This document shows positions 59,094 to 62,258 of a DNA stretch of 63,305 nt, in pieces; positions within the stretch are counted from its first letter, which is position 1, and the number at the start of each line of letters is the position of its first letter. The position numbers and the translations under genes were made by a program. Below the pieces are notes generated by a model, which ran no database searches, had not been told where the DNA came from, and saw only the letters and a program-made list of their open reading frames with translations. Source of the DNA: Bacteroidaceae bacterium (GTDB lineage: Bacteria; Bacteroidota; Bacteroidia; Bacteroidales; Bacteroidaceae). The stretch covers positions 1 to 63,305 of the forward strand of contig JAFTYP010000014.1 of NCBI GenBank assembly GCA_017461345.1, read 5' to 3'.

Positions 59094-62000
59094 ATGAAAA
59101 CAAGAGGTCTTGTTGCTGTCTTGTTGTTATTGACAGGATTTCAGTCTGCTTTGGCACAGACGTTAAAACTTTATCTGTCCGACAAGCAGGTGGTAGAGTA
59201 TAGCGTAGAAAAAGTTGATAGTTTGGTGTTTACTGATGGTGCAGGCGATACAGCCGAAACCCACGAATGGGTTGACCTCGGTTTGCCGTCCGGTACTTTG
59301 TGGGCGACTTGCAATGTAGGTGCCAATAGCCCTGAGGAATATGGTGATTACTTTGCTTGGGGCGAAATAGAACCCAAGAATGAATACAGTTGGAGCACCT
59401 ACAAATACTGCAAAGGTTCAATTGATACAATGACGAAGTACTGCACAAACAACAGTTTGGGTACAGTTGATAATAAGACCGAACTCGAACCATCTGACGA
59501 TGCTGCCACAGTGAACTGGGGCAGCGGTTGGCAGATGCCGAGCGAGGAACAGTTCGAAGAACTTATTAACAGCAGTTATACAACCACTACATGGACAACC
59601 ATGAATGGAGTATATGGTAGGAAGATAACCAGCAAGAGCAACGGCAATAGTATTTTCTTGCCAGCTGCCGGTTATCGCAAGGGTACGAGCCTCAACAATG
59701 CAGGTAGCAGCAGCAACTATTGGTCGCGTTCGCTCTCTACGAGCAACATCAACCGCGCTTACGGCCTGCGCTTCGATTCCAGCGATATCAGCACGAGCAC
59801 CTACTACCGCTACTACGGCCCGAGCGTTCGCCCGGTGCGTACTAATAGTGCTCAAACAACAGTGCAGAAGATTGTATTCTACATGGAGGGTAATCAAACC
59901 ATCGAATGTAATGTTTCAGAGTTGGACAGTATTGTTTTTGTTGATACGGAAGCAGAAGAAAACGATGTTCACGAATATGTCGACCTTGGTTTGCCTTCTG
60001 GTACATTGTGGGCGACATGTAATGTAGGCGCATCAAGTCCCGAAGAATACGGCGATTACTTTGCCTGGGGCGAAACAGAACCTAAAACAGATTATAGTTG
60101 GAACACATATAAGTACTGCAAAAGTTCAAGCGATTCAATGACGAAGTATTGCACAAATAGTAAATACGGCACCGTTGATAACAAGACTGAACTCGAACCA
60201 TCAGACGATGCTGCCACAGTAAACTGGGGCAGCGATTGGCAGATGCCAAGTTATGAACAATGCATGGAACTCTACAACAGCAGTTACACCACCACTACAT
60301 GGACAACATTGAATGGCGTTAAAGGCAAGAAGATAACCAGCAAGAGTAATGGTAACAGTATTTTCTTGCCGGCGGCAAACCGTCGTTATGGTACGAATTT
60401 TCAAAATGCATCAATGGGTAATTACTGGTCACGTTCACTTTGGTCGAGTAATGCTACCAATGCGTTGGATTTGTTTTTCCATTCTGACGGAATCAACTTT
60501 ACTTCCAGCTCTCGGGACTTCGGTCAAAGCGTCCGCCCTGTTCGTGTGAATGGTGTCGTTGCTGTTGCAAGCATTACGTTGAATCAGACAGGACTTTCTA
60601 TTGGTCTTGGTAAAACATCACAAATTTCAGCAATTGTATTGCCTGAGAATGCAACCAATAAGAAGGTAGTCTGGGCAAGCAGTAATGATAGTATTGCAAC
60701 TGTTGACCAAACAGGCAATGTGACTGCTGTTGCTGGTGGCACTTGCACGATTACATGTTCGGCAACAGATGGTAGTGGTGTAAAGGCAGGATTAAAGGTT
60801 ACAGTAATTGAGTATTATGAATATGTTGATCTTGGTTTGCCTTCCGGTACATTGTGGGCAACTTGCAATTTAGGCGCATCAAGTCCCGAAGAATGTGGCT
60901 ATTATTTTGCTTGGGGCGAAACAGAACCGAAGACAACGTACAACTGGAGTACCTACAAGTACTGCAATGGTTCAGAGACTACAATGACGAAGTACTGCAC
61001 AAGCAGCATTGACGGCACAGTTGACAACAAGACAGAACTTGAGGCAATGGACGATGCCGCCACCGTGAATTGGGGGACAGATTGGCAGATGCCGAGCAAG
61101 GAACAGTTCGATGAACTCATCAATGGCAGTAACACCACCACTACATGGGCAATCATGAATGGCGTTAAAGGCTGGAAGATAACCAGCAAGAGCAATGGCA
61201 ACAGTATATTCTTGCCGGCTGCCGGTTATCGCGACGGTACAAGGCGTTCTGATGTTAATAGCCCATATTATTGGACATGTTCGCTCTTTGGTGGAAACTA
61301 CGCCTTTTTCCATGAAGATAAATTCTTCATCCGTTACATTGGATGTAATGTTCGCCCCGTCCGTGTTAAAAGGAATAAAGTGATTAAAGTTGCTGAAATC
61401 ATACTGAATGGGACGAAAGTCCAATTACGTCTTAAGGCAGTTATGCAATTAAAAGCAACAGTTATGCCTTGGTATGCTACGAAAAAGAATGTTAGGTGGG
61501 GAAGTAGTAACAAGAGCATTGCTACGGTTGACGAGACAGGCAAGGTGACAGCAGTTGCTGCAGGCACTTGCACGATTACTTGTAGAGCAACAGATGGTAG
61601 TGGCGTAAAGGCAGTGTGCACCGTAACAGTAACAAATTCTGACATTTCAGGGACATCGGATGTTCATGACTATGTTGACCTTGGTTTGCCTTCCGGTACA
61701 TTGTGGGCAACGTGCAATGTAGGCGCATCAAAGCCCGAGGAATGGGGTGATTATTTTGCTTGGGGCGAGACAGAACCGAAGAATGATTATAGTTGGAACA
61801 CATATAAATACTGCAATGGTTCAGAGACTACAATGACGAAGTACTGCACAAGCAGCAGTGACGGCACAGTTGACAACAAGACCGAACTTGAACCATCTGA
61901 CGATGCTGCCACCGTAAATTGGGGTCCTGATTGGCAGATGCCGAGTATTGAACAATGCGAAGAACTTTGCAATAGCAGTTACACTACTACAACATGGACA

Positions 62001-62258
62001 ACTCAGAATGGCTTCTATGGCATAAATATAACCAGCAAGAGCAACGGCAACAGTATTTTTTTGCCGGCTGCCGGTTGTCACTACGGTACGAGCCTCAGCA
62101 GTCTAGGTAGCGTCGGCTACTATTGGTCGCTGTCGCTCAGTACGAGCGACAGCGACCTCGCTTACAGCATGGGCATCGGTTCCAACCCTATCTACTCGAA
62201 CGGCTACAGCCTCCGCTTTGACGGCCGGAGCGTTCGCCCCGTCCGTGTGAAGAATTAA
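59094..62258 (+). CDS. Giant exported protein with four FISUMP (Fib_succ_major) domains and two Ig-like domains; candidate DGR target
   Basis: A 1054-residue exported protein (signal peptide about 1-22; ATG preferred over an upstream TTG). Two copies of a short motif (LKLYLSDKQVVEYSVEKVDSL and KIVFYMEGNQTIECNVSELDS) precede repeats 1 and 2. Four FISUMP domains each run from DLGLPSGTLWATCN to SVRPVR or NVRPVR (ends near 59840, 60549, 61371 and 62252); BIG2 Ig-like domains (ATVDQTGNVTAVAGGTCTIT and ATVDETGKVTAVAAGTCTIT) sit before repeats 3 and 4. FISUMP belongs to the C-type-lectin-like folds favoured by diversity-generating retroelements. Repeats 1 and 4 show the codon signature of such diversification in their last 50 codons. 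Probably cell-surface; ligand unknown. Confidence 0.88.
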   Translation: MKTRGLVAVLLLLTGFQSALAQTLKLYLSDKQVVEYSVEKVDSLVFTDGAGDTAETHEWVDLGLPSGTLWATCNVGANSPEEYGDYFAWGEIEPKNEYSWSTYKYCKGSIDTMTKYCTNNSLGTVDNKTELEPSDDAATVNWGSGWQMPSEEQFEELINSSYTTTTWTTMNGVYGRKITSKSNGNSIFLPAAGYRKGTSLNNAGSSSNYWSRSLSTSNINRAYGLRFDSSDISTSTYYRYYGPSVRPVRTNSAQTTVQKIVFYMEGNQTIECNVSELDSIVFVDTEAEENDVHEYVDLGLPSGTLWATCNVGASSPEEYGDYFAWGETEPKTDYSWNTYKYCKSSSDSMTKYCTNSKYGTVDNKTELEPSDDAATVNWGSDWQMPSYEQCMELYNSSYTTTTWTTLNGVKGKKITSKSNGNSIFLPAANRRYGTNFQNASMGNYWSRSLWSSNATNALDLFFHSDGINFTSSSRDFGQSVRPVRVNGVVAVASITLNQTGLSIGLGKTSQISAIVLPENATNKKVVWASSNDSIATVDQTGNVTAVAGGTCTITCSATDGSGVKAGLKVTVIEYYEYVDLGLPSGTLWATCNLGASSPEECGYYFAWGETEPKTTYNWSTYKYCNGSETTMTKYCTSSIDGTVDNKTELEAMDDAATVNWGTDWQMPSKEQFDELINGSNTTTTWAIMNGVKGWKITSKSNGNSIFLPAAGYRDGTRRSDVNSPYYWTCSLFGGNYAFFHEDKFFIRYIGCNVRPVRVKRNKVIKVAEIILNGTKVQLRLKAVMQLKATVMPWYATKKNVRWGSSNKSIATVDETGKVTAVAAGTCTITCRATDGSGVKAVCTVTVTNSDISGTSDVHDYVDLGLPSGTLWATCNVGASKPEEWGDYFAWGETEPKNDYSWNTYKYCNGSETTMTKYCTSSSDGTVDNKTELEPSDDAATVNWGPDWQMPSIEQCEELCNSSYTTTTWTTQNGFYGINITSKSNGNSIFLPAAGCHYGTSLSSLGSVGYYWSLSLSTSDSDLAYSMGIGSNPIYSNGYSLRFDGRSVRPVRVKN
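59670..59840 (+). repeat. Candidate DGR variable region in FISUMP repeat 1
   Basis: Codons from AGYRKGTSL to SVRPVR. It aligns with 62072-62243 codon by codon: by hand count, of about 48 aligned codons about 30 differ, nearly all at positions 1 or 2, and only about 3 at position 3. Third positions are mostly C (AAC, AGC, TAC, CGC), unlike repeats 2 and 3. Confidence 0.7.
62072..62243 (+). repeat. Candidate DGR variable region in FISUMP repeat 4
   Basis: The counterpart of 59670-59840, at the extreme C-terminus of the gene where variable regions usually lie. It has one extra codon near its end. Its flanks (upstream NGNSIFLPAAG, downstream SVRPVRVK) are conserved in all repeats. Confidence 0.7.

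Follow-up and report, generated by a model that had tools for sequence, protein, structure and literature searches.

Two probable diversity-generating retroelement variable repeats within a single FISUMP multi-domain protein of a Bacteroidaceae bacterium

The locus

The window analysed here covers contig C2 in full (63,305 bp; JAFTYP010000014.1), as judged from locus lengths. The contig belongs to a metagenome-assembled genome (MAG) of a ruminant-gut Bacteroidaceae bacterium, designated G000, which consists of 2.07 Mb in 32 contigs and is 72.75% complete. Near one end of the window lies a gene for a surface-type protein of 1054 amino acids (aa) that contains four FISUMP/DUF1566-like cassettes, termed r1 to r4. 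The ends of the first and fourth cassettes have a substitution pattern that very probably identifies them as variable repeats (VRs) of a diversity-generating retroelement (DGR). The features of the gene are as follows.

59094–62258, plus strand: gene for the 1054-aa target protein, in which two Big_2 Ig-like domains are set between the four FISUMP/DUF1566-like cassettes
59670–59831, plus strand: putative VR1, the end of cassette 1, internal in the protein, delimited by codon-position comparison of ends
59817–59833, plus strand: 3′ end tract of VR1, GGCCNNAGCGTTCGCCC, a candidate homing signal
60363–60545, plus strand: end of cassette 2 (r2), third positions randomised and not homogenised with the six ends described below; ordinary or retired
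60629–60807, plus strand: first Big_2 Ig-like region (Pfam match), one copy of direct repeat D2, whose second copy is at 61454–61632
61209–61364, plus strand: end of cassette 3 (r3), similar to the end of cassette 2 in these respects and about ten codons shorter
62073–62237, plus strand: putative VR4, the end of cassette 4, C-terminal, delimited by codon-position comparison of ends
62223–62239, plus strand: 3′ end tract of VR4, GGCCNNAGCGTTCGCCC, a candidate homing signal

The protein has an apparent N-terminal export signal, as judged by eye. The Big_2 domains are recognized by Pfam (E=1.9e-31). Lcl_C, of which we take DUF1566 to be a synonym, scores just under its Pfam cut-off (E=1.1e-7), and the TIGR02145 FISUMP model gives 25.2 bits, below its cut-off of 41.65. 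The cassettes that end in the VRs, putative C-type-lectin-like domains, are assigned to FISUMP/DUF1566 by sequence alone, under the curated cut-offs of both families. The AlphaFold model is poor (pLDDT 48.8) and structure comparison was uninformative.

Codon-position footprint in cassettes 1 and 4

When the ends of r1 and r4 are aligned over 57 codons, from FLPAA to VRPVR, mismatches at codon positions 1, 2 and 3 number 18, 19 and 5. The two ends differ in 32 codons, 29 nonsynonymously and three synonymously. The constant parts of the same cassettes (135 codons) show the opposite distribution, 9/18/50, with 23 nonsynonymous and 35 synonymous codon differences. Positions 1 and 2 taken together against position 3, the ends differ from the constant parts with p=1.3e-8 (Fisher test), and the probability of five or fewer third-position changes among 42, given the position ratio of the constant parts, is 1.5e-12. 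A preliminary description of this DNA had reported about 38 mismatches against about 3, with about 30 of 48 codons changed; the recount of 37 against 5, and 32 of 57 codons, bears this out.

Ordinary duplication and divergence of FISUMP repeats is a rival account, in whose favour several FISUMP repeats occur per gene and r2 and r3 fit it. The 18/19/5 mismatches of the r1 and r4 ends, set against 9/18/50 in the constant part, leave this account a practically negligible probability. The five other pairs of cassette ends in the target gene show no such codon-position effect, and we therefore accept the footprint as genuine and limited to the r1 and r4 ends.

A six-member class of cassette ends

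Blastn searches with VR1 and VR4 revealed four further ends of this kind, at C12:1249-1431, C21:5143-5328, C24:155400-155585 and C10:71668-71868. Each is the 3′ end of a FISUMP gene on another contig of the MAG, so that the class has six members in five genes on five contigs. The comparisons cover nine FISUMP ends of this genome, four from the window and five from four fetched stretches; they are not a whole-genome census. The ratio of mismatches at positions 1 and 2 to those at position 3 is 4.7–10.3 in all 15 pairs within the class, and 1.1–2.0 in all 21 pairs that involve r2, r3 or the first C21 cassette. In the ungapped columns 6–65 of the six-end alignment, 32, 33 and 10 of 53 columns vary at positions 1, 2 and 3. 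The constant parts of these six cassettes differ at 31–53 of 133 third positions, and therefore homogenisation has acted on the ends separately from the remainder of each cassette.

Third-position homogeneity extends from about codon 6 to about codon 65 of the alignment, which corresponds to 59670–59831 and 62073–62237. The segments had been placed at 59670–59840 and 62072–62243; the start of VR1 stands, and the other limits are refined. Randomised first and second positions with like third positions, limited to a segment of ~160 bp, are what is expected on the target side of a DGR.

A 17-base tract, GGCCNNAGCGTTCGCCC, closes all six ends on the 3′ side and occurs once in each; r2, r3 and the first C21 cassette do not have it. 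It is a candidate for a homing signal of the type of the initiation of mutagenic homing (IMH) site. The three cassettes that are without it are probably no longer targets. The C10 member (L020, G000:C10:71668-71868) contains a 15-nt tandem copy, and all three differences between the copies are at A and are A to G, a small sign inside the genome for adenine as the mutated base. Such a copy could arise if the reverse transcriptase slipped on its template during mutagenic copying.

The 3′ flank of r4 (62259–62370) resembles that of the C21 VR gene (G000:C21:5344-5549), with 81% identity over query bases 1–230. In spite of the like flanks, the constant parts of these two genes are unlike at 50 of 133 third positions, which suggests an exchange of gene ends. 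A dispersed intergenic repeat lies at 62350–62540. The sequence 62259–62560 has at least 48 matches in the genome at E<=1e-5, its own site included, when 40 of 107 first-look candidates were scored. The repeat consists in part of a 22-bp tandem unit, GAACTTGCCCGACTTCTCTGCA, present in 5.1 copies at 62422–62534. The repeat lies behind several VR genes, yet also at many other sites in the genome.

DGRs and footprints in related genomes

A close relative is Bacteroidaceae bacterium RGIG9433 (G049), a MAG from yak caecum that is 86% complete. It is termed a sister species here in the sense that its loci are the nearest to those of G000 among those found; no tree was built. Among the loci fetched from G049, three of the VR genes of G000 have counterparts with matching neighbourhoods. 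Of these ortholog pairs, two carry the footprint: the end of the C12 gene differs by 16/13/8 at positions 1, 2 and 3 and its constant part by 14/15/54, and for the C21 gene the figures are 23/14/5 and 12/15/51. VR-like ends of another relative, G119, have a ratio of at least 3 in 8 of 10 pairs. Counts of VRs per relative genome are lower bounds, as the best five or best two candidates per genome were scored. One wider survey of relatives took in 399 genomes out of a larger family.

DGRs with FISUMP targets are present in the same genus (G063 and G065) and in sister genera (G154 and G161). Mismatches between template and VR face a template A in 26 of 27 cases in G154, 24 of 24 in G161, 20 of 21 in G063 and 19 of 23 in G065. 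The G154 template reads FLPAAGYRNDTSLNNAGSNGNYWSRSLNTNNSDNAYNLNFNSGNIIRNNNNRNNGQSVRPVRV and has 80% DNA identity to the template that can be reconstructed from the six ends of G000. One G154 open reading frame (ORF) contains the template in frame together with the reverse transcriptase (RVT_1, E=2.9e-15; PHROG reverse transcriptase, E=6.5e-90); the reverse transcriptase locus of G161 was judged by eye. In all four genomes the target is a FISUMP protein, the reverse transcriptase is adjacent and the template-encoded protein is related to that implied by the VRs of G000. They differ from G000 in that the target lies beside the core, i.e. the template, reverse transcriptase and accessory ORF, and in G000 no core was seen. 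None of these four templates looks like the donor: at non-A third positions those of G154 and G161 depart from the VRs of G000 at 21–27 sites each, and those of G063 and G065 agree with the reconstructed template at only 70–75%.

Within the genus, the reconstructed template found matches in 29 of 139 genomes (blastn, E<=1e-5), many of which may be plain homologues and not VRs. The G063 reverse transcriptase matched in 27 genomes of the genus at E<=1e-3, the weaker matches being other classes of reverse transcriptase. At E<1e-20 the G154 reverse transcriptase matched in 12 genomes (G003, G010, G024, G030, G034, G036, G050, G063, G065, G080, G109 and G114), and six of these 12 also have matches to the reconstructed template (G010, G036, G063, G065, G109 and G114). 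A-biased repeat pairs lie near 11 of 15 reverse transcriptase loci of the genus; the filter favours A bias and had no shuffled control, and this result serves as a locator only.

The FISUMP DGR loci share a further component, an ORF of 162–233 aa with the motif AY(E/D/N)xSAW (by eye), which adjoins the template and reverse transcriptase.

Copies of the 162–233 aa ORF: L138:1850-2404, L139:629-1330, L141:1881-2417, L063:2141-2731, L064:3996-4484, L082:1188-1745

The G154 copy matches those of G063 and G065 in sequence searches; Pfam, NCBIfam and PHROGs gave no hit for it at E<=0.01. A separate 127-aa ORF adjoins the G063 core and matches Avd (NCBIfam NF033474, 4.1e-14), below the cut-off. A G063 target (L064:4592-6001) has a protein-kinase-like N-terminal part, by eye, fused to the FISUMP variable domain. 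In a Paraprevotella-labelled MAG, L115:1-3252 (JAGBUF010000192.1) contains two adjacent paralogous genes that each end in a FISUMP cassette, and the VR core pattern was matched only in the second.

Template adenines and third positions

With the G154 template as an outside reference, variation among the six ends affects 44 of 51 sites at which the template has A and 39 of 135 of the remaining sites (p=9.7e-13). When r1 and r4 are compared alone, the figures are 28 of 53 and 21 of 136 (p=5.6e-7). A set of six control ends that are not homogenised with the class, three from G000 and three from G049, was picked after the pairwise ratios were known. At codons that are Asn in the template, positions 1 and 2 differ in 342 of 560 comparisons (61%) within the class and third positions in 23 of 280. 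In the controls, positions 1 and 2 differ to a similar extent (304 of 520; 58%) and third positions differ in 145 of 260. The third position is the fact that discriminates the class from the controls.

The same codons bear on gene conversion among paralogous cassettes, combined with strong diversifying selection on the binding loop and with no retroelement involved. Short blocks common to r1 and C21, and to C24 and C10, can be seen by eye, and r4 and C21 have a 3′ flank in common; recombination between cassettes therefore probably occurs. Gene conversion would homogenise positions 1 and 2 as well, however, and these differ in 61% of comparisons, as opposed to 8% at position 3 of the very same codons. 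In addition, like cassettes in the relatives sit beside DGR templates and reverse transcriptases. As a full explanation of the six ends, gene conversion is very improbable.

Search for the core

The preliminary description proposed that a remote template and reverse transcriptase elsewhere in the genome edit the two cassettes. This part was not borne out: searches found none in G000 (72.75% complete) or G049 (86%), both of which are incomplete assemblies, so that the proposal is not refuted by the standard of that description, which asked for a closed genome. PF00078 (RVT_1) has no match in G000, and the DGR reverse transcriptases of G063 and G154 as queries have none in G000 or G049. Blastn with both VRs and the reconstructed template, to E=10, brought up nothing in G000 beyond the VRs, ends of other FISUMP cassettes and short matches of low score; one of the weak matches was considered as a template and rejected, as it sits in an unrelated ORF. 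The 184-aa accessory ORF of G154, of the kind located between target and template in relatives, has no match in either genome; Avd was not searched separately in G000. The reconstructed template had no match in plasmid or phage collections, nor did the core pattern have an exact one in a collection of viral contigs.

The incompleteness of the assemblies, with ~27% of G000 and ~14% of G049 unassembled, is enough to explain why the core was not seen. Alternatively, the core could reside on a separate element that escaped binning, or could have been lost. Loss would mean a retired DGR, i.e. the six ends were written in an ancestor, the core has since disappeared and the footprint is fading. This is a sub-case of a DGR origin and a rather unlikely one. 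It accords with the failure to find a core in G000 or G049, and with r2, r3 and the first C21 cassette, which look faded, with similar variability at the protein level and third positions randomised. Both MAGs are incomplete, however, and at template-Asn codons the six ends have unlike third positions in just 23 of 280 comparisons, against 31–53 of 133 in constant parts; such homogeneity should not last long after loss of the core.

Interpretation

VR1 and VR4 are very probably DGR variable repeats, and both lie in the same multi-domain protein, which is apparently exported; the core would be either still present or recently lost. The sequence comparisons point to this origin through the footprint, the six-end class, and the DGRs of the genus and of sister genera, whose templates are related. 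The DGR origin put forward in the preliminary description is upheld by the six co-homogenised ends and their third-position conservation, by the footprint in two of three G049 pairs and by the related DGRs of relatives.

A number of observations weigh against this interpretation. Neither G000 nor G049 has yielded a template, a DGR reverse transcriptase or an accessory ORF. The third ortholog pair, that of the C10 gene, is without a footprint (end 21/21/22, constant part 22/16/50), and among the G049 ends the ratio reaches 3 in just 4 of 21 pairs. Of the relatives, G065 has a reverse transcriptase match that lacks the N-terminal part, beginning at query residue 170, and G114 is a weaker case, with just 30 of 56 template-VR mismatches facing A. 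VR1 is internal, and published VRs are typically C-terminal (PMC8144416). The control ends also vary more at template A, with 46 of 51 sites against 41 of 73 at positions 1 and 2; the same test gives 45 of 51 against 22 of 73 for the six-end class, with odds ratios of 7.2 and 17.4, respectively. Part of the template-A association is therefore loop tolerance or older editing, since the controls show it too, if more weakly. Within G000 itself there is no A enrichment, as A accounts for 150 of 390 letters in the variable columns of positions 1 and 2 (0.38, versus 0.37 in the r1 constant part). Thus A sites of an outside template vary more, as the earlier proposal of adenine-specific mutagenesis would have it, but this result is partly confounded, and adenine specificity is not demonstrable within G000. 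Adenine would be the mutated base in this strain by analogy with the related DGRs.

The following mechanism is proposed. An error-prone reverse transcriptase would copy a template RNA that has AAC or AAT at most of its variable codons and would misread adenines; the resulting cDNA would overwrite the ends of matching FISUMP cassettes. Overwriting would randomise codon positions 1 and 2 and reset third positions to those of the template. A single template may have written the ends of six or more cassettes, distributed over five genes and as many contigs, with two of these ends in the target protein. Because the core was not found in the G000 MAG, it would act, or would have acted until recently, in trans, wherever it now resides. 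Editing may be going on at present. By analogy with known DGR targets, the edited segment is likely the ligand-binding face of a C-type-lectin-like domain (PMC4159848, PMC8144416), and diversification of ligand binding may be the benefit to the cell.

A more speculative proposal, which we consider unlikely, is that in the ruminant Bacteroidaceae lineage of G000 and G049, whose assemblies both have VR families and no core, the core is on a separate mobile element and writes in trans into surface-protein cassettes dispersed over the chromosome, two of them in one polypeptide; r2, r3 and the first C21 cassette would have lost their match to the template by drift and so have been retired. If so, gain or loss of the element would switch diversification of the whole family on or off.

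If VR1 and VR4 are DGR variable repeats, two consequences are of general interest. DGR-edited cassettes can be recognized from raw sequence without a template or reverse transcriptase, by comparison of cassette ends in one genome for like third positions alongside divergent positions 1 and 2. In addition, edited and apparently unedited copies of one domain side by side in a protein provide a built-in control for the choice of target.

Elsewhere in the window, at 51685–52070 on the minus strand, is an ordinary gene for bacterial RNase P RNA class A.

Comparison with known systems

Putative variable proteins of the human microbiome include 47 with DUF1566, nine with Fib_succ_major and nine with Big_2 (Ye, 2014; PMC4159848), which confirms the earlier statement that FISUMP and DUF1566 domains are recorded DGR targets. 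The target domain classes are the same as here, and partial systems that have no reverse transcriptase gene were also collected. Each of those DGRs has a template-VR pair, however, whereas no template was found in G000 and one VR is internal. In Bacteroides, DGR-diversified tip pilins are mentioned in a review (PMC12632263). No report of the G000 VR family was found in the open-licence literature, which was not searched for the genome by name.

Several VRs per ORF have been described in Marichromatium purpuratum (Schillinger, 2012; PMC3521204), in 31 of 271 multi-VR DGRs (Yan, 2019; PMC6642488) and in DGR 4/5 of Thiohalocapsa PB-PSB1, with trans or tandem targets (PMC10907252). As proposed for the protein described here, these systems have VRs in two or more cassettes of one protein, and the C-type-lectin cassettes are in tandem. 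DGRs 4 and 5 of PB-PSB1 are the nearest published parallel, since they are among the loci called incomplete or remote (PMC10907252). The published multi-VR ORFs have a reverse transcriptase or template on the same genome or contig, and none was seen in G000.

VRs are typically C-terminal and remote targets were missed by a survey (Roux, 2021; PMC8144416). DGRs with remote or trans targets (PMC3521204, PMC10907252) resemble the G000 family in that targets lie far from the core and belong to paralogous families with non-VR members; G000 differs in that the core was seen nowhere in the assembly and the six VRs are on five contigs. Targets of the FISUMP/DUF1566 kind, more than one repeat in an ORF and targets remote from the core are thus all on record, and the protein described here extends a known system. 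Its layout is unusual: unlike in the published multi-VR ORFs, the two probably edited cassettes enclose a pair that is not homogenised with them.

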